From positions 1,198,501 to 1,262,500 of the forward strand of contig NZ_CP039934.1 of NCBI RefSeq assembly GCF_009792295.1: DNA of 64,000 bases, written 5' to 3'. A program made the translations under genes and the position numbers. Position 1 is the first letter of the stretch; each line of letters begins with the position of its first letter. Shown here piece by piece: positions 26,549 through 48,175 of this stretch. The stretch comes from Myroides fluvii. GTDB lineage: Bacteria > Bacteroidota > Bacteroidia > Flavobacteriales > Flavobacteriaceae. Below the pieces are notes generated by a model, which was given only the letters and a program-made list of their open reading frames with translations, searched no databases and was not told the DNA's origin.

Positions 26549-27901
26549 ATGTTTAAAAAAATATTAGTAGCTAATAGAGGTGAAATTGCTTTACGCATCA
26601 TTAGAACGTGTAAAGAAATGGGAATTAAAACTGTAGCTGTGTATTCAACTGCAGATGCAGACAGCCTTCACGTACGCTTCGCTGACGAGGCTGTGTGTAT
26701 TGGACCTGCTCCCTCAAACCTATCGTATTTAAAAATTTCCAACATTATCGCTGCAGCTGAAATCACAAATGCTGATGCGATTCATCCTGGATATGGTTTC
26801 TTAGCTGAAAATGCGAAGTTTTCTAAGATCTGTCAAGAGCACGGTGTTAAATTTATCGGTGCTTCTCCTGAGATGATTGAAAAAATGGGAGACAAAGCGA
26901 CAGCGAAAGAAACAATGAAGTTAGCTGGAGTACCTACGGTTCCAGGTTCTGATGGGTTATTAGACTCATTAGAACACGCAAAAAAAACAGCCAAAGAAAT
27001 TGGTTACCCTGTCATGATGAAAGCAACTGCTGGAGGTGGTGGTAAAGGGATGCGTGAAATCTTCAAAGAAGAAGAAATCGAAAAAGCTTGGGAAAGTGCT
27101 CGTCAAGAGGCTGCTGCTGCCTTTGGAAACGACGGTATGTACATGGAGAAACTAATCGTTGACCCGCGTCACATCGAAATCCAAGTAGTAGGAGATTCTT
27201 ATGGAAAAGCATGTCACTTATCTGAAAGAGACTGTTCCATCCAAAGACGTCACCAAAAACTTACGGAAGAAACTCCTTCTCCATTCATGACTGATGAATT
27301 GAGAGACAGAATGGGATTAGCCGCTGTAAAAGCCGCTGAATTCATCAAATATGAAGGAGCAGGAACGATTGAGTTCTTAGTGGACAAAGATCGCAACTTC
27401 TACTTCATGGAAATGAATACGCGTATCCAAGTAGAACACCCAATCACAGAACAAGTAATTGATTACGATTTAATTCGCGAACAAATCTTAGTGGCTGCAG
27501 GTGTGCCTATCTCGGGTAAAAACTATACGCCTAAATTACACTCGATCGAATGTCGTATCAACGCTGAAGATCCTTTCAACGACTTCAGACCTTCTCCAGG
27601 AAGAATTACTACGTTGCATGCGCCAGGAGGACATGGAGTGCGTTTAGACACTCACGTGTATTCTGGATACTCTATTCCGCCAAACTACGATTCAATGATT
27701 GCCAAGTTGATCACAACCGCTCAAACAAGAGAAGAAGCAATCAACAAAATGAAACGTGCGTTAGACGAGTTTGTAATCGAAGGAATCAAAACAACTATTC
27801 CGTTCCACAGACAATTGATGGATGATCCAAATTACAGAGCAGGAAATTATACTACTGCTTTTATGGAATCATTCAAGATGAAACCTTTAGAAGAAGAATA
27901 G
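26549..27901 (+). CDS. accC: Acetyl-CoA carboxylase biotin carboxylase subunit
   Basis: A 450-residue ATP-grasp enzyme that carboxylates biotin on AccB using bicarbonate and ATP. Visible are the N-terminal [27 protein letters not shown], the glycine-rich ATP loop [44 protein letters not shown] with metal-binding glutamates, and the C-terminal [10 protein letters not shown] and [11 protein letters not shown]. The length is exactly typical. It is the last gene of fabH-accB-accC; the transferase subunits are not in this window. Confidence 0.97.
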
Positions 27902-43500: not shown

Positions 43501-43668
43501 CACCTCCCAACTAACACCTCCCAACTAACACCTCCCAACTAACACCTCCCAACTAACACCTCCCAACTAACACCTCCCAACTAACACCTCCCAACTAACA
43601 CCTCCCAACTAACACCTCCCAACTAACACCTCCCAACTAACACCTCCCAACTAACACCTCCCAACTAA
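43501..43668. repeat. 14-bp tandem repeat, 12 perfect copies (minisatellite)
   Basis: The unit CACCTCCCAACTAA is repeated 12 times without a mismatch. As 14 is not a multiple of three and no ORF spans it, it is non-coding. The minus strand reads TTAGTTGGGAGGTG, so GGGAGG tracts recur every 14 bases, compatible with G-quadruplex formation. It continues at 43669-43740 into degenerate 8-9 base repeats (caccctct, caccacct). Perfect copies imply very recent expansion or high copy-number instability. Confidence 0.95.
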
Positions 43669-43740
43669 CACCTTCTCACCCTCTCACCCTCTCACCACCT
43701 CACCACCTCACCACCTCACCCACTCACCTTCTCACCCTCA
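43669..43740. repeat. Degenerate CACC-based short repeats flanking the 14-bp array
   Basis: Successive words caccttct, caccctct, caccacct and cacccact of 8-9 bases continue the C-rich strand bias after the perfect array. They look like decayed or variant units. No gene. Confidence 0.8.
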
Positions 43741-43833: not shown

Positions 43834-43841
43834 TTATTTTA
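43834..43841 (+). promoter_or_regulatory. Putative -7 box of cassette 1
   Basis: TTATTTTA, aligned with the stronger boxes of cassettes 2-4 through the following shared AGCACTCCCAAA-like sequence. It is 40 nt before the first stem of the leader RNA, the same distance as in the other cassettes. Confidence 0.45.
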
Positions 43842-43880
43842 GCACTCCCAAACTTAACTTTTTAACTTACTATAAACAAA

Positions 43881-43958
43881 GTACTTCTTCAGTATACTTG
43901 CGATTAAAAGAAAATTGCTAAGTCCATTTGGTACAATAAACCAATCCTATTGAAGTAC
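43881..43958 (+). ncRNA. Structured leader RNA of cassette 1 (diverged copy)
   Basis: A closing stem GTACTTC (43881-43887) with GAAGTAC (43952-43958) encloses two hairpins: ACTTGCGATT with AATTGCTAAGT (one bulge), and ATTTGG with ACCAAT. The primary sequence shares almost nothing with the leaders of cassettes 2-4. Overall length (78 nt), distance to the promoter box (40 nt) and to the start codon (23 nt) are the same. It is either a diverged member or an independent leader; architecture favours the first. Confidence 0.6.
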
Positions 43959-43981
43959 ATCGAATACCTAAATCACATACT

Positions 43982-44227
43982 ATGAGTACAAAACCCCTAC
44001 ACTGTGTAATTTCTGAAAACGACAGACACAATCTTTTACTACTACAGCAATTGTATAACCACAATCCAAATTTTGCAGCTTATGCCAAAAGTATTACTTC
44101 GCTTTTTTATTATTATATGCACAACTGCACCCCGCAAAATGATGATTTTGAACTCAATACCGATGATGTACACAGTGTACTTGAATTGGTCAATACCCTT
44201 CAGAACTTAAAACAACCTACAAACTAA
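43982..44227 (+). CDS. 81-residue protein of unknown family, cassette 1
   Basis: A small cytoplasmic protein, 81 residues, no signal peptide or membrane segment. It is clearly homologous to three further 81-residue proteins in the next 4 kb (shared MSTKP start, HNLxLLQxLYNxNPNF, AQSI/AKSI, LFYYY, HCTxNxDxFxLN, DVHxVLExVxTLQxLK). This copy is the most diverged. The pattern suggests two or three amphipathic helices (about 17-28, 33-50 and 62-76) with a Tyr-rich centre and one Cys. I do not recognise a family. It is preceded by a structured leader and followed by a hairpin terminator. Confidence 0.8.
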   Translation: MSTKPLHCVISENDRHNLLLLQQLYNHNPNFAAYAKSITSLFYYYMHNCTPQNDDFELNTDDVHSVLELVNTLQNLKQPTN

Positions 44228-44257
44228 AATTTTTCATGATTAATCATCTACTAACGT

Positions 44258-44298
44258 AAAAAGCAGTAACAAACCTAGGTTTGCAACTGCTTTTTTAT
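44258..44298. terminator. Bidirectional terminator after cassette 1
   Basis: AAAAAGCAGT (44258-44267) pairs with ACTGCTTTTT (44286-44295), with a further inner stem AAACC-TA-GGTTT (44271-44282). The same AAAAAGCAG...CTGCTTTTT element ends the three other cassettes. It also lies at the 3' end of the convergent gene at 44295. Confidence 0.85.
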
Positions 44299-44930
44299 TT
44301 TTTTGAAATATATGGAATCGAATTCGATTTTATAACCACGTTGTACGGAACAAAATTGGCCTTCTCAAGCGCCTCTACTACATTAGGTTCAACATTAGAA
44401 GATATCCAAGCATCATCCATAATATACGACATAGAAAACGAGTACTTGTTTTTTTTATTCGTATCAACAACATATTCTTTCGAATCCAAATAGTTGGAAT
44501 CGCCCCCCTTTTTTAAAACAAAAAGATAAGAAAACAGCATACTTTCTCCTTTTCCCAATAAGATGAGCGAAGTAAAAGTATCTATTTTAGGCAATTCCCT
44601 GATTGCTTCATCATCACAACTAGAGCGAGTAACTAGGGTCATTGTGTACTTTTCTTCAGCCGTATTTTCTTCAAAATGTTCACTAATTCTTCGTCCTTTA
44701 AAAAAAGAATGATAAGACAAGAAGCTTTTTTCTTGATTCCCGACAATTGTATCTAACGCAAGCCAAATATTTTGCTTTGAATGGTTCACTAATTTCACTT
44801 GTAATAGCGTGCTATCACGAACTTCCTTTTGTTGAATTTCAAAATACACATCAGCCTTTTTACTCTGGGACATCCCGAATGCAAAAACAAATAAAAAAAA
44901 TAGGGTCACAATCTTCTGCATCAGTTTCAA
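44295..44930 (-). CDS. Exported protein of unknown function between cassettes 1 and 2
   Basis: A 211-residue protein with a signal peptide (MKLMQKIVTLFFLFVFAFGM, then SQS). The start could be either of the first two Met codons. The mature part reads like a beta-sandwich (ADVYFEIQQKEVRDSTLLQVKLVNHSKQNIWLAL; seen as LLQVKLVNHSKQNIWLAL). Mature positions include one Cys, in SSCDDEAI. It is not homologous by eye to the two lipoproteins that occupy the same place after cassettes 2 and 3. It is convergent with cassette 1 and divergent from cassette 2. Function unknown. Confidence 0.75.
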   Translation of the reverse strand: MKLMQKIVTLFFLFVFAFGMSQSKKADVYFEIQQKEVRDSTLLQVKLVNHSKQNIWLALDTIVGNQEKSFLSYHSFFKGRRISEHFEENTAEEKYTMTLVTRSSCDDEAIRELPKIDTFTSLILLGKGESMLFSYLFVLKKGGDSNYLDSKEYVVDTNKKNKYSFSMSYIMDDAWISSNVEPNVVEALEKANFVPYNVVIKSNSIPYISKK

Positions 44931-45052
44931 TTTAATGACTAAACTACTTCTATTCCTTTAAAAAAAGAAATCAAACCTTAAAATCTCGTTCACAATTCAA
45001 ATAACTAACTAAAAAACAGACAGTTGAATCTTAAAATAAACTAAAATTAATT

Positions 45053-45060
45053 TATCTTTA
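45053..45060 (+). promoter_or_regulatory. -7-like promoter box TATCTTTA of cassette 2
   Basis: TAnnTTTA, followed by GTATTCCTAAATTTCAAG, a stretch nearly identical in cassette 3. It lies 43 nt before the leader stem. Confidence 0.6.
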
Positions 45061-45102
45061 GTATTCCTAAATTTCAAGTTTCACACCACAAAAAAAGATT
45101 TT

Positions 45103-45179
45103 GCCTGTAATTGGATGGTGGCGATATTGGAAACAACCGCAACGCTACTTGAAGCGTAGGACACCTAAACTTTACAGGC
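45103..45179 (+). ncRNA. Structured leader RNA of cassette 2
   Basis: The closing stem P1 is GCCTGTAA (45103-45110) with TTACAGGC (45172-45179). Inside are GGTG (45117-45120) with CACC (45162-45165), a short stem GCG/CGC (45121-45123 with 45138-45140) closing a loop with TTGGAAAC, and the hairpin ACGCT-ACTTGA-AGCGT (45142-45157). P1, the short stem and the hairpin all differ from cassette 4 while still pairing. Loop sequences TTGGAAAC, GGACACC and TAAAC are invariant. 26 nt separate P1 from the ATG. No known riboswitch class was recognised. Confidence 0.8.
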
Positions 45180-45205
45180 TTCTATAATTCCCTAATTCAA
45201 GTATT

Positions 45206-45451
45206 ATGAGCACAAAACCTCAACCCTCCACGCTATCCAAGAAAGATAGCCACAACTTAGCGCTATTGCAAGAGTTGTATAATCTCAACCCCAATTTTGC
45301 CTCTTATGCGCAAAGTATCAATGCTCTCTTTTACTACTACGTTCAACATTGTACAGAAAATGCGGATGAATTCTTTCTGAACTCCTCCGAAGTACATCAG
45401 GTATTAGAAATTGTCCATACACTACAAAAACTAAAGAAACCTAAAAACTAA
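45206..45451 (+). CDS. 81-residue protein of unknown family, cassette 2
   Basis: Paralogue of the proteins at 43982, 46516 and 47823, identical in length. It differs from the cassette 3 protein at only three positions (K13, N26, I69 here). Soluble, mainly helical by eye, with SYAQSINALFYYYVQHC as the best-kept core and a basic end (KKPKN). The start context (AGTATTATGAGC) is kept among cassettes. It lies directly downstream of the structured leader and is followed by the shared terminator, so it is the only ORF of its transcript. Confidence 0.85.
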   Translation: MSTKPQPSTLSKKDSHNLALLQELYNLNPNFASYAQSINALFYYYVQHCTENADEFFLNSSEVHQVLEIVHTLQKLKKPKN

Positions 45452-45482
45452 TTTTTTCCTATGACACAATACCTTACAACGT

Positions 45483-45524
45483 AAAAAGCAGCAATAAACC
45501 CAAGTCTTTTGCTGCTTTCTATTT
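45483..45524. terminator. Terminator after cassette 2
   Basis: AAAGCAGCAA (45485-45494) pairs with TTGCTGCTTT (45509-45518), loop TAAACCCAAGTCTT, T-rich flank. It is shared with the convergent lipoprotein gene that ends at 45542. Confidence 0.8.
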
Positions 45525-45541
45525 TCATTCATTTTAGAATC

Positions 45542-46075
45542 TCAACGTTCTGTTTTCATTTGCTCCCAATACTTCATGGTTGATTCATAACACTCAAGGC
45601 TTCTCAACGTATTGTTTCGCTGTTTTTCTCGAAACAAAGTTCGCAATGAATCAATATATTGGGCTAAGTCTTCACTTTCATAAAAATCAAAAGCTCGCCT
45701 AAACGTCATATGTGCTTTTAAGTTTTTATCGTCCAAAGGCATATAGGGTCCATATTCCTTCTTTAACCATTTATCTCTTATCCGGTTGTAGTTTTCATCT
45801 ATATACGAAGGATGATCCTCAGAATAAAAATCAACCATTAAACAGACATCATGATATAGTTCCGTACTTGATATATCAAATAAGGAATCATACGGAATCT
45901 TATACTGTTCCCTCTCCATTTCTAATGCTCTTTCGTATAAATCCATAAAAGCATATTGCCGATGGATTGCCAACAAACCTTCTATTTTTTGATCATTTTG
46001 ATCCTGTTCTCTTTTTACAGTTGTTGAACAACTGATGAAGAAAAAACATCCGAAAATAAAAATTACTTTTTTCAT
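45542..46075 (-). CDS. Lipoprotein of unknown function (copy A)
   Basis: A 177-residue lipoprotein with signal MKKVIFIFGCFFFISCSTTV; the lipobox cysteine is in FISC. The mature part is charged and helical (KREQDQNDQKIEGLLAIHRQ, DLYERALEMEREQ), with a conserved MTFRRAFDFYESEDLAQYID segment (seen as FRRAFDFYESEDLAQYIDSL). It is homologous to the copy at 46872 but longer at its C terminus (EQMKTER). Convergent with cassette 2. A -7 box TAGTTTTG lies at 46147-46154. I do not recognise the family; outer-membrane anchoring is likely. Confidence 0.85.
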   Translation of the reverse strand: MKKVIFIFGCFFFISCSTTVKREQDQNDQKIEGLLAIHRQYAFMDLYERALEMEREQYKIPYDSLFDISSTELYHDVCLMVDFYSEDHPSYIDENYNRIRDKWLKKEYGPYMPLDDKNLKAHMTFRRAFDFYESEDLAQYIDSLRTLFREKQRNNTLRSLECYESTMKYWEQMKTER

Positions 46076-46146
46076 ATCATACCATTCGAGACTTCCAAAG
46101 TTCGTCTATCGATTGCTTCATATCCCCTTCTGCTAAACCCTCTTTT

Positions 46147-46154
46147 CAAAACTA
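46147..46154 (-). promoter_or_regulatory. -7 promoter box TAGTTTTG for lipoprotein copy A
   Basis: Exact TAnnTTTG on the minus strand, kept as TAGCTTTG in copy B at 47456-47463, where only an 'n' position differs. That supports real promoter function. Confidence 0.6.
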
Positions 46155-46362
46155 CAAGTATAAAATTAGTTAAGCAACAAATACAATATTCTTTATCAGA
46201 AGTATAGACTCTGAAATTAGTGAATTATACTACACTTAATTTCAGCACTTACTTACCAACTTAAAGTTCAACAAAACAAATCCGGAACAACAATCTCATT
46301 CAAAATTCAAACAACCACCTAAAATACAACAACTTAAACACTAAAAAACAGGCTAAAAAAGT

Positions 46363-46370
46363 TACCTTTA
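46363..46370 (+). promoter_or_regulatory. -7-like promoter box TACCTTTA of cassette 3
   Basis: TAnnTTTA followed by GTACTCCTAAATTTCAAG, as in cassette 2, and 43 nt before the leader stem. Confidence 0.6.
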
Positions 46371-46412
46371 GTACTCCTAAATTTCAAGTTTTACACCACA
46401 AAAAAAGATTTT

Positions 46413-46489
46413 GCCTGTAATAGGATGGTGGCGATATTGGAAACAACCGCGACGCTACTTGAAGCGTAGGACACCTAAACTTTACAGGC
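46413..46489 (+). ncRNA. Structured leader RNA of cassette 3
   Basis: Nearly identical to the cassette 2 leader: P1 GCCTGTAA (46413-46420) with TTACAGGC (46482-46489), GGTG/CACC, GCG/CGC and hairpin ACGCT-ACTTGA-AGCGT. The two differ at two loop or joining positions (TTGGAT to TAGGAT, and CGCAACG to CGCGACG), so no paired base is broken. 26 nt separate it from the ATG. Confidence 0.8.
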
Positions 46490-46515
46490 TTCTATAATTC
46501 CCTAATTCAAGTATT

Positions 46516-46761
46516 ATGAGCACAAAACCTCAACCCTCCACGCTATCCAAAAACGATAGCCACAACTTAGCCCTATTGCAAGAGTTGTATGACCTCAACC
46601 CTAATTTTGCCTCTTATGCGCAAAGTATCAATGCCCTCTTTTACTACTACGTTCAACATTGTACAGAAAATGCGGATGAGTTCTTTCTCAACTCCTCAGA
46701 AGTACATCAGGTATTAGAAGTAGTCCATACGCTACAAAAACTAAAGAAACCTAAAAACTAA
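46516..46761 (+). CDS. 81-residue protein of unknown family, cassette 3
   Basis: Near-identical to the cassette 2 protein (N13, D26, V69 here). Many nucleotide differences from cassette 2 are synonymous, for example at codons for Leu and Ala early in the gene. This suggests selection to keep the protein after the duplication. It has the same leader-ORF-terminator order. Convergent with lipoprotein copy B. Confidence 0.85.
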   Translation: MSTKPQPSTLSKNDSHNLALLQELYDLNPNFASYAQSINALFYYYVQHCTENADEFFLNSSEVHQVLEVVHTLQKLKKPKN

Positions 46762-46791
46762 TTTTCCCCATGACACATTACCTTACAACGT

Positions 46792-46832
46792 AAAAAGCAG
46801 CAATAAACCCAAGTCTATTGCTGCTTTTTATT
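46792..46832. terminator. Terminator after cassette 3
   Basis: AAAAAGCAGCAA (46792-46803) pairs with TTGCTGCTTTTT (46818-46829). Confidence 0.85.
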
Positions 46833-46871
46833 TTCATTCATTTGAGAATCTTAACGTTTTGTTTTCATTTG

Positions 46872-47384
46872 CTACCAATACTTCATCGTTGATTCATAAC
46901 ACTCAAGGCTTCTCAACGTATTGTGTCGCTGTTTTTCGCGAAACAAAGTTCGCAATGAATCAATATATTGATCTAAGTCTTCGCTTTCATAAAAATCAAA
47001 AGCTCTCCTAAACGTCATATGTGCTTTTAAATTTTTATCGTCCAAAGGCATATAGGGTCCATATTCCTTCTTTAACCACTTATCTATTAACCGATAGTAG
47101 TTCTCATTGTCATAAGTTGGATGGTCTTCTGAATAAAAATCCATTACTATACAAAACTCATGATATAATTCCATACTTGATATATCGAATAAGGAATCAT
47201 ACGGAATCTTAAGCTGTTCTTTCTCTTTCTTTAACGCTCTTTCGTATAAATCCATAAAAGCATATTGCCGATGGATTGCCAACAAACCTTCTATTTTTTG
47301 ATTAATGAGCTCTTGTTCTCTTTTTACAGTTGTTGAACAACTGAGTAAGAAAAAACATCCGACTATAAAAATTACTTTTTTCAT
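46872..47384 (-). CDS. Lipoprotein of unknown function (copy B, C-terminally shortened)
   Basis: A 170-residue paralogue of copy A with lipobox cysteine in LLSC (signal MKKVIFIVGCFFLLSCSTTV). The gene ends at ...MKYW followed by TAG, where copy A has GAG (Glu) and continues EQMKTER. Beyond the TAG the same frame still reads QMKTKR and then stops. A single G-to-T nonsense change has therefore trimmed the last seven residues. The rest is intact, so the protein is probably still made. Its promoter box TAGCTTTG (47456-47463) is conserved. Confidence 0.85.
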   Translation of the reverse strand: MKKVIFIVGCFFLLSCSTTVKREQELINQKIEGLLAIHRQYAFMDLYERALKKEKEQLKIPYDSLFDISSMELYHEFCIVMDFYSEDHPTYDNENYYRLIDKWLKKEYGPYMPLDDKNLKAHMTFRRAFDFYESEDLDQYIDSLRTLFREKQRHNTLRSLECYESTMKYW

Positions 47385-47455
47385 ATACTATCATTCGAGG
47401 TTATCAACGTTCGTCGATCGATTGTTTCCTATCCCCTTCTGCTAAACTCTCTTTT

Positions 47456-47463
47456 CAAAGCTA
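47456..47463 (-). promoter_or_regulatory. -7 promoter box TAGCTTTG for lipoprotein copy B
   Basis: Exact TAnnTTTG on the minus strand, ~72 bases before the start at 47384, at the equivalent place to the box of copy A. Confidence 0.6.
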
Positions 47464-47672
47464 CAAGTATAAAATTAGCTAATCAACAAATAAAATATTG
47501 TTTATCAGAAGTATAGACTCTAAAAATCAGTAGACTATACTGCACTTAATTTTACCACTTACTTACCAACTTAAAGTTCAACAAAACAAATCCAAAACAA
47601 CAATCTCATTAAAAATTCAAATAACCATCTAAAAAACAATTAGTTAGAATAAGTAAAAACCAAAAAACATAG

Positions 47673-47680
47673 TACATTTA
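47673..47680 (+). promoter_or_regulatory. -7-like promoter box TACATTTA of cassette 4
   Basis: TAnnTTTA followed by AAATTCTTAAA, 42 nt before the leader stem, matching the spacing in cassettes 2 and 3 although the sequence between has changed. Confidence 0.55.
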
Positions 47681-47721
47681 AAATTCTTAAAGCAATAACA
47701 TTAAACTTCTAAAATATTTTT

Positions 47722-47793
47722 CCGTAGGGCAAGGTGGCACATTTGGAAACGACTGCAATGCTGTTATTGGCATAGGACACCTAAACCTTACGG
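47722..47793 (+). ncRNA. Structured leader RNA of cassette 4 (covarying copy)
   Basis: P1 is CCGTAGGG (47722-47729) with CCTTACGG (47786-47793, one G-T pair), entirely different in sequence from P1 of cassettes 2 and 3. GGTG/CACC is kept. The short stem is GCA/TGC instead of GCG/CGC, and the hairpin is ATGC with GCAT instead of ACGCT with AGCGT. The unpaired TTGGAAAC, GGACACC and TAAAC are unchanged. Changed stems with kept pairing and constant loops are the signature of a selected RNA fold. 29 nt to the ATG. Confidence 0.8.
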
Positions 47794-47822
47794 TTTTTAC
47801 ACCATTCTTAAACAATAACAGT

Positions 47823-48068
47823 ATGAGCACAAAACCTCAACCCTCCACGCTATCCAAGAAAGATAGCCACAACTTAGCGCTATTGCAAGAGTTATATGAC
47901 CTCAATCCCGATTTTGATTCCTATGCACAAAGTATCAATGCCCTCTTTTACTATTATGTACAGCATTGTACAGAAAATGCAGATGATTTTTTTCTGAACT
48001 CCACTGACGTCCTTCAAGTATTAGAAGTAGTCCAAACGTTACAAAAACTAAAGAAACCCAAAAACTAA
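47823..48068 (+). CDS. 81-residue protein of unknown family, cassette 4
   Basis: Fourth paralogue, same length, about nine differences from the cassette 3 protein (for example NPDFDSY, DDFFLNSTDVLQVL). The helical core ALFYYYVQHCTEN and the TLQKLKKPKN end are unchanged. It has the same leader and terminator arrangement; the downstream neighbour is the feo cluster on the other strand instead of a lipoprotein. Confidence 0.85.
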   Translation: MSTKPQPSTLSKKDSHNLALLQELYDLNPDFDSYAQSINALFYYYVQHCTENADDFFLNSTDVLQVLEVVQTLQKLKKPKN

Positions 48069-48100
48069 TTTTTCTCTCATGATGCATCTCCTTTTAACGT

Positions 48101-48140
48101 AAAAAGCAGCAATAAACCCAAGTCTATTGCTGCTTTTTTA
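48101..48140. terminator. Terminator after cassette 4
   Basis: AAAAAGCAGCAA (48101-48112) pairs with TTGCTGCTTTTTT (48127-48139), the same element as in cassettes 2 and 3. It may also end the convergent feo operon. Confidence 0.85.
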
Positions 48141-48175
48141 TTTTTAAATGAGGCTGACCTCAAGCTATATATTCC

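Follow-up and report, generated by a model that had tools for sequence, protein, structure and literature searches.

We describe here a group of small genes, found first as an array in Myroides fluvii and present also in Flavobacterium, whose 5' leaders typically contain a c4-2 RNA with a fast-changing guide loop that can pair with a target present in two copies, one on either side of the RNA. The first copy (R1) stands at the predicted 5' end of the transcript and the second (R2) lies immediately 5' of the ATG of the ORF. Sequence comparison across genomes gives good support to the guide-R1 and guide-R2 pairings as real, and on balance we read each unit as a privately addressed translation switch that would work in cis and may also do so in trans. 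The sequence studied, referred to as the window, is a stretch of 64,000 nt from M. fluvii (NZ_CP039934.1, assembly GCF_009792295.1, positions 1,198,501-1,262,500).

A first-pass annotation of this DNA had proposed a four-fold cassette array of promoter, leader, 81-codon ORF and terminator. The array is borne out: four such units are present in the window (Table 1), and their ORFs constitute a 4-member repeat family of 252 nt, with identities to copy 2 of 64%, 94% and 88%. Among ORF copies 2-4 dN/dS is 0.07-0.08 (comparisons with copy 1 are saturated at synonymous sites), and the ORF is therefore under protein-level constraint. The common terminator proposed for all units holds in so far as a terminator-like hairpin of similar sequence lies 3' of each of the four ORFs; in copy 2 its closing T-run is broken (CTGCTTTCT). 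By Rfam boundaries, 24, 24 and 25 nt separate the RNA end from the ATG in copies 2-4, and in copy 2 the -7 box and the first stem are 42 nt apart, all within a few bases of the spacings first reported. For the -7 promoter element, PMC9723704 gives the consensus TAnnTTTG at positions -12 to -5.

Table 1. Features of the four units, in window coordinates
Feature	Positions	Strand	Basis or remark
Unit 1 promoter and leader; folds marginally, lacks a c4-2 match, guide/target match not seen by eye	43834..43980	+	
Unit 1 81-aa ORF, 60% identity to unit 2	43982..44227	+	
Unit 1 terminator-like hairpin	44258..44296	+	Sequence, repeat family
Unit 2 promoter -7 box TATCTTTA, TAnnTTTG variant	45053..45060	+	Sequence
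Unit 2 R1, target copy at predicted transcript 5' end	45064..45079	+	7 bp with guide loop; by eye, AGGA faces a UCCU box
Unit 2 c4-2 RNA (RF02944)	45105..45181	+	cmscan 50.8 bits, gathering score 41
Unit 2 guide loop UACUUGAA of hairpin P4	45146..45153	+	Tail AGGA 45158-45161
Unit 2 R2, target copy immediately 5' of ATG	45188..45205	+	8 bp with guide loop
Unit 2 81-aa ORF	45206..45451	+	ORF call; dN/dS
Unit 2 terminator-like hairpin, T-run interrupted	45481..45524	+	Sequence, repeat family
Unit 3 R1	46375..46389	+	7 bp with guide loop
Unit 3 c4-2 RNA	46413..46491	+	62.9 bits; guide loop 46456-46463, tail AGGA 46468-46471
Unit 3 R2	46498..46515	+	8 bp with guide loop
Unit 3 81-aa ORF	46516..46761	+	ORF call
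Unit 3 terminator-like hairpin	46790..46833	+	Sequence, repeat family
Unit 4 R1, address differs: UUCUUAAAGCAAUAACA	47684..47700	+	8 bp with guide loop
Unit 4 c4-2 RNA	47720..47797	+	64.2 bits; guide loop UGUUAUUG 47762-47769, tail AGGA 47774-47777
Unit 4 R2	47805..47822	+	9 bp with guide loop plus preceding base
Unit 4 81-aa ORF	47823..48068	+	ORF call
Unit 4 terminator-like hairpin	48099..48142	+	Sequence, repeat family

The leader had been taken for an unrecognised RNA, the same in all four units. Neither view survives entire. With cmscan the leaders of copies 2-4 match the Rfam family c4-2 (RF02944) above its gathering score of 41, and they fold better than shuffled sequences (z = -3.66, -4.17 and -2.77; item L034 was left out of this shuffle test). 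The leader of copy 1 has no c4-2 match in the Rfam search even at E <= 1 and folds marginally (z = -1.84, with 9 of 200 shuffles equally good); this copy would work, if at all, without guide/target pairing. The c4-2 family reportedly derives from a 2017 RNA-discovery paper. Rfam types it as "sRNA" (clan CL00128), and the literature searched gave no function, ORF link or guide/target relation for it. By score and fold the three window leaders are members of c4-2; the linked ORF and the guide/target relation go beyond what that literature records for the family. A GAAA loop plus a UAUGG/CCUAAG receptor makes up the GAAA tetraloop/11-nt receptor motif. Candidates for both parts are seen by eye in many Flavobacterium copies and in degenerate form in those of the window, the search pattern itself having required GGAAAC and CTAA. 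Guide loop, flanking targets and Rfam membership were absent from the first-pass annotation.

The 3' hairpin (P4) supplies the guide, which comprises its 8-nt loop and 4 nt beyond it, usually AGGA. Among 86 units there are 33 distinct loops, and both targets change along with the loop; such variety supports the diversification suggested earlier for the array. Over 32 distinct loops the guide pairs with its own R1 and R2 by a mean of 7.19 and 7.09 bp, values that none of 100,000 shuffles reached for either target. The pairing has a single preferred register in the 86 units with 33 loops: at gap 3, 62% (R1) and 73% (R2) of loop positions are paired, as against 17-45% in the seven other registers, and when pairing is scored at whichever of gaps 3 and 4 is better, the mean for own targets was reached by 0 of 20,000 shuffles. 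In the 73 ORF-linked units of an 18-genome set, pairing of at least 7 bp is found with R1 in 64 and with R2 in 63, leaving 9 and 10 units below 7 bp. The tail covaries as well. Where the loop pairs by at least 6 bp (best site at gap 1-7), UCCU stands opposite AGGA in 37/43 R1 and 24/40 R2, UCUU opposite AAGA in 4/4 R1 and 4/4 R2, and UUCU opposite AGAA in 4/7 R1 and 3/7 R2, the remainder matching 3 of 4 bases; the counts cover these three tails and omit misread ones (ACCT, CCTT, CGTA, GGAC, TAGG and others) and 18 rows without a tail.

Individual loci show the match to differing degrees. Three that had no part in forming the idea (L006, L011 and L014) show it by eye, L011 and L014 having the second target within codons 5-8 and 5-7, respectively. 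The R1 pairing alone is kept in the Myroides relative L088 (10 bp versus 6) and, by eye, in L003, and in L005 pairing is imperfect even with R1. For a candidate 'type II' leader, in which the segment before the ATG would be complementary to R1, 12 units were picked by eye; only 5 of these pair by at least 7 bp, the mean of the 12 being reached by 7 of 20,000 shuffles, and we treat it as no more than a lead. At one chromosomal site 46 units carry 13 different loops. Within genomes, units cross-match in 4 of 234 ordered pairs; as orthologues from different genomes have loops in common, this low figure is only weak evidence that orthogonality has been selected.

The expectation that an RNA-protein unit of constant geometry would recur elsewhere is supported. 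In 18 genomes selected for multiple c4-2 copies, 94 of 113 hits (the 113 being nearly all above cut-off) precede an ORF of 60-110 aa starting 12-26 nt downstream, compared with 71 of 2058 random places on those loci (3.4%). The genome of M. fluvii itself has two further c4-2/ORF units, at 27084 and 3575010. This co-occurrence would also suit an autoregulatory leader, in which binding of the small protein to the c4-2 fold would regulate production of that protein, with the loop-target pairing as no more than the expression platform. Over all loci, however, the same RNA stands before ORFs of six sequence clusters. Four profile comparisons among four clusters of these downstream families gave probabilities of 0.3-3.4%, and we claim no homology. 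With six clusters, and no similarity in the comparisons made, it is difficult to see how protein-RNA recognition could be common to them, and we regard autoregulation of this kind as quite improbable.

The proteins are 77-104 aa long, and three helices are predicted in each of two models (pLDDT 62, for the Myroides protein, and 77). Pfam gave nothing above cut-off for the window proteins or for eight from other loci, nor did NCBIfam for the window proteins; in PHROGs, a database without cut-off, the best E among seven proteins was 0.016. Against PDB profiles the Flavobacterium family had nothing below E 0.18, and a Foldseek search with the model of pLDDT 77 had nothing at E <= 0.001. The Myroides family hit profiles of de novo TIM barrels, at best with E 0.00081 and with no single stretch reaching the threshold by itself; we take these hits as chance.

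Not every c4-2 RNA is part of such a unit. Among 17 RNAs without a counted ORF, 12 also have neither R1 nor R2, and all 12 score above the gathering score, 4 of them above 70 bits. Such orphans suggest an action in trans; the action in cis on the ORF that had been proposed for the leader may thus be half the story, since c4-2 RNAs without R1, R2 or ORF exist. We dropped orphan loops as support for immunity: they match R2 of units in other genomes in 39 of 829 pairs, a rate no higher than that of the loops of paired units (6.0% of 5022), so that this matching lends a role in trans no support, and for this reason we rate the toxin-antitoxin reading and that of a new gene class, both discussed below, slightly lower. 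A search of the M. fluvii genome for trans targets (R2 14-mer, at most 1 mismatch) gave 6 sites against 3 for the control, the exact ones being the two known units alone, and unit 2 had no match in phage and plasmid DNA collections. Flavobacterium units often adjoin restriction-modification genes, and units also lie beside an integrase gene and within a phage contig.

Type I toxin-antitoxin and plasmid antisense RNAs likewise have a hypervariable loop with a private address that pairs close to a small ORF's start codon. In a module of this type c4-2 would be an antitoxin RNA, terminated by its own P1 stem and the U-run, that silences a small toxin downstream, orphans serving as immunity against incoming units. 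The hypervariable, self-matching antisense address, the multiple paralogues, the orphan RNAs and the position of units beside restriction-modification genes, beside an integrase gene and within a phage contig agree with it. The guide covaries with R2 as an RNA complementary to a toxin mRNA would, but it lies upstream on the same strand and in the same predicted transcript, it has a second target at the transcript 5' end, and it sits in a conserved multi-helix scaffold. Usual type I toxins are short membrane peptides, which the linked proteins, with their length and the three helices predicted for the two modelled, do not appear to resemble. Furthermore, many members of the protein families are seen by eye to have no RNA, and the orphan loops match units of other genomes at base rate only. 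We judge a toxin-antitoxin module unlikely.

The direct repeats either side of the RNA that match its guide loop recall the bridge RNA of IS110/IS621, a structured RNA whose internal guide loop matches flanking sequence. At the DNA level, R1 and R2 would then belong to a very small mobile element as its target-site or recombination repeats, with the loop as target-choosing guide. In the c4-2 units, however, the targets are the transcript start and the ORF start rather than DNA junctions: within the 14 nt 3' of the -7 box that were inspected, a UCCUA-like box begins at the predicted +1 or one base earlier in 62 of 64 units, and R2 keeps a steady distance 5' of the ATG. Twelve orphan RNAs retain neither repeat, none of 36 regions with RNA-less homologues has a clean single-copy empty site by eye, no recombinase gene recurs among the commonest neighbours, and by eye the window units contain no recombinase-like ORF. 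This reading is very improbable.

For the translation switch we propose the following mechanism. The 5' leader of each small gene holds a compact folded c4-2 RNA bearing its own address, whose P4 loop (approximately 8 nt) and 4-nt tail can dock onto a UCCU-AAA-N8 sequence present as R1 and as R2. Docking on R2 would cover the ribosome landing site and stop translation, and docking on R1 would compete and leave R2 free. The ribosome, the small protein or a second c4-2 RNA of the same address might tip the balance; orphan RNAs would act in trans on cognate units, and differing addresses would prevent paralogous units from acting on one another. That R2 pairing affects expression, and in this direction, we infer from sequence. 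R1 pairs better in 19, R2 in 10 and both equally in 22 of 51 units, and because the two pair almost equally well the default state is unreadable from sequence. With riboswitch-like leaders, which have two exclusive pairings and a metabolite as ligand, the units share a leader RNA, two competing docking sites and a single ORF; they would differ in that the ligand is RNA (R1, R2 or a sister RNA) and not a metabolite, and in that the pairing sequence evolves fast.

What looks here like a private-address RNA switch is of a kind not described in the literature searched. More tentatively, and with some doubt, the units may represent a new class of RNA-addressed gene. In such a class one portable RNA scaffold would use its hypervariable guide loop to recognise both the start of the transcript that carries it and the start site of the gene linked to it. 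Several unrelated families of small proteins, and orphan RNAs working in trans, would share this scaffold in a system of self/non-self recognition tied to mobile and defence loci. For a catalogued RNA family without an assigned role, the present reading provides a function that can be tested, namely that of a naturally programmable RNA switch. Its address, its two targets and its scaffold are each legible in the sequence, and it would operate in a phylum where Shine-Dalgarno pairing is not used. If the orphan RNAs act in trans on cognate units, this could be an RNA system of self/non-self recognition beside restriction-modification hotspots.

The first-pass annotation had proposed a four-fold array in the window, and this array was recovered (table below): each unit runs from a Bacteroidota-type -7 box through a leader and an 81-codon ORF to a terminator-like hairpin. 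The same annotation regarded the leader as one RNA in all four units. This holds for units 2, 3 and 4, which cmscan identified as c4-2 (RF02944), an Rfam family typed as sRNA, but not for unit 1, which gave no match at E <= 1. The whole genome reveals five c4-2 matches, two of them outside the window and each preceding an 81- or 82-aa homologue. The six ORFs of the genome matched by the protein profile are the four of the window and these two. None of the three ORFs between the units has a family over cut-off, and no restriction-modification, recombinase or phage-type genes lie between the units. The 177-aa and 170-aa ORFs are close paralogues inside DNA that was duplicated along with the array.

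Features of the array and its surroundings (window positions)
Feature	Position	Strand	Source
Four-unit array	43834-48142	+	
ORF between units, 211 aa	44295-44930	-	ORF listing
ORF between units, 177 aa, lipoprotein-like	45542-46075	-	ORF listing
ORF between units, 170 aa, lipoprotein-like	46872-47384	-	ORF listing
14-nt tandem repeat (CACCTCCCAACTAA), then 8-nt tandem repeat, immediately upstream of the array	43501-43740		

The last hairpin (P4) of c4-2 bears a loop of about 8 nt, followed by a 4-nt tail, usually AGGA; loop and tail are here called the guide. By eye, the loop was first seen to be the reverse complement of a short sequence on either side of the RNA, namely R1 at the predicted transcript 5' end and R2 directly before the ATG of the ORF. 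Covariation among the sequences shows the predicted pairing of the guide with both R1 and R2. When all loops were compared with all flanks, using one representative per distinct loop (n=32), own-pair means were 7.19 bp for R1 and 7.09 bp for R2, against 5.53 and 5.31 in the best of 100,000 shuffles. In a further test the register was fixed solely from the conserved UCCUAA-like box, with 33 distinct loops in 86 distinct units and 41 entries unparsed. At a gap of 3 nt, 62% (R1) and 73% (R2) of the loop positions were paired, compared to 17-45% at seven other registers. When each pairing was scored at gap 3 or gap 4, whichever was better, own means of 6.03 (R1) and 6.12 (R2) of 8 were reached by 0/20,000 shuffles, whose maxima were 4.61 and 4.73. 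The tail covaries with the box as well (AGGA/UCCU, AAGA/UCUU, AGAA/UUCU), counted at the best site at gap 1-7 and restricted to units with at least 6 bp of loop pairing; among AGGA units, UCCU was absent in 6/43 R1 and 16/40 R2.

The same pairing was found in 18 genomes selected for several copies, from which 113 c4-2 matches were fetched. An ORF of 60-110 aa begins 12-26 nt past the RNA in 94 of these matches, as against 71/2058 random places in the same loci, and ORF-linked units pair over at least 7 bp with R1 in 64/73 and with R2 in 63/73 cases. Three loci unused in forming the idea (L006, L011, L014) also show the guide/target match by eye; L011 and L014 were among the sequences of the initial inspection. 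The match is absent from L132, a weak match in another family, and L007 lacks both targets and an ORF. A near-constant loop sets apart a second c4-2-like subtype, which precedes a 91-94 aa protein (L201, L207, L213, L226, L239, L249, L255, L271, L272 and others). Several of the 18 genomes carry one or two copies of this subtype, in which inspection by eye showed no match of guide and target.

In F. psychrophilum, a transcriptome study puts the TAnnTTTG box at -12 to -5 (PMC9723704). A -7 box was found in 67/69 units and, with the F. psychrophilum rule applied, a UCCUA-like box begins at +1 or -1 in 62 of the 64 units whose offset could be measured. The end of R2 is immediately upstream of the ATG; L011 and L014 are exceptions, with the second target inside the first eight codons. 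An extra ATG stands between R1 and the RNA in 55/69 units; its frame is not conserved and runs into the main ORF in 5.

The c4-2 RNA is more widely distributed than the Myroides protein. A predicted-protein search with the six own sequences, its reach restricted to shared 5-residue words, yielded 34 proteins, and all 14 of those with a name were from Myroides. Counting the own genome each time, c4-2 was found at E <= 0.001 in 7/249 genomes sampled from the family, 11/395 sampled from the phylum and 73/398 from the GTDB genus to which this genome belongs. Searching with a DNA pattern returned 104 stretches from named genomes, plus 4 from viral contigs; the 80 listed of the 104 were mostly from Flavobacterium, with clear chance matches in unrelated phyla. 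Among 117 parsed places, the window's own included, 110 passed the outer-stem filter and 90 the P2 filter. L122, a chance match despite passing the filters, and the duplicates L008 (= L041), L010 (= L030), L013 (= L072) and L119 (= L048) were removed by hand, and 83 loci were retained once identical elements were also out.

The 139 distinct downstream proteins of both locus sets fall into six sequence clusters, and four comparisons covering four clusters revealed no similarity between them. For two of these proteins, modelling suggests three helices at low to moderate confidence. The Flavobacterium protein family has members without a c4-2 match, and 36 regions containing such members were fetched, partial matches excluded. 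By eye, a decayed-looking leader retaining R1 is found in 12/36 (L298, L299, L301, L303, L304, L306, L308, L312, L318, L325, L328, L331). At some of these loci the pre-ATG segment is partly complementary to R1, over at least 7 bp in only 5/12, a weak hint that the guide might have moved there. Most of the remaining regions are, by eye, free of any RNA; upstream, several of these show a palindrome and a small HTH gene in divergent orientation, which matched HTH_3 in the two loci tested, L340 and L342. A small HTH gene was also seen by eye opposite the RNA-free member in L300, L302, L305, L307, L313, L315, L323, L329 and L333. The palindrome of several RNA-free members lies ahead of the promoter and varies in sequence from copy to copy (e.g. 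GACACAAATTTGTGTC).

In the named loci, which are chiefly from Flavobacterium, type II restriction-modification genes are frequent just downstream of the unit. Among the 25 families listed per search for 67 non-redundant downstream proteins (of 69; 2 at locus ends excluded) were HNH restriction models (6), C5 methylases (4), HpaII (2), Vsr (2) and one each of HaeIII, EcoRII, NgoBV and MvaI/BcnI. On the upstream side, 39 proteins were compared after 3 of 42 at locus ends had been set aside; none of the 25 families listed per search was a type II restriction enzyme or C5 methylase, but single proteins matched models for ATPases from other defence systems (PtuA, GajA, AriA and others). Flavobacterium units often adjoin a hotspot of diverse type II restriction-modification genes (e.g. 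L019, L025, L036, L089, L090), followed in some loci by an AsmA-like gene. In L030, from another genus, the unit adjoins a tyrosine recombinase gene. The unit of L119/L048, with an 88-aa ORF, lies on a Prevotellaceae contig that is also a viral contig entry; this phage contig encodes a resolvase and a 2058-aa protein, tape-measure-like by eye.

Among the papers searched, one names RF02944, as a single entry of a table on structure updates (PMC11701678), and c4-a1b1, which we take as a different motif from c4-2, is listed for gamma-Proteobacteria and phages (PMC2864571). Literature searches on the name c4-2, on Flavobacterium small RNAs and on a hypervariable loop in Bacteroidota brought up no description of the guide/target relation; the original c4-2 description may mention it.

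In named genomes, 46 units lie within 2.5 kb downstream of one same gene, HPF-like by eye, and 13 different loops are carried at this site. Cross-matches of at least 7 bp occurred in 4/234 ordered unit pairs within a genome versus 6.0% of 5022 between genomes, the latter figure being inflated by orthologues sharing loops (label permutation p = 0.010). No counted ORF accompanies 17/90 matches with a parsed guide, and 12 of these 17, the orphan RNAs, lack R1 and R2 as well (<= 6 bp to both). A single orphan has a cross-match to a unit of its own genome, and for nine there is a match in one or more units of other genomes; over all pairs with other genomes the matches amount to 39/829, not above the rate for paired units. 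Because all 12 exceed the gathering score of 41 bits, 4 of them lying above 70 bits, c4-2 RNA can persist intact alone.

Docking of the guide on R2 would hinder initiation, and docking on R1 would compete with docking on R2. Orphan c4-2 RNAs may act in trans, a role argued from their persistence and not from their matches.
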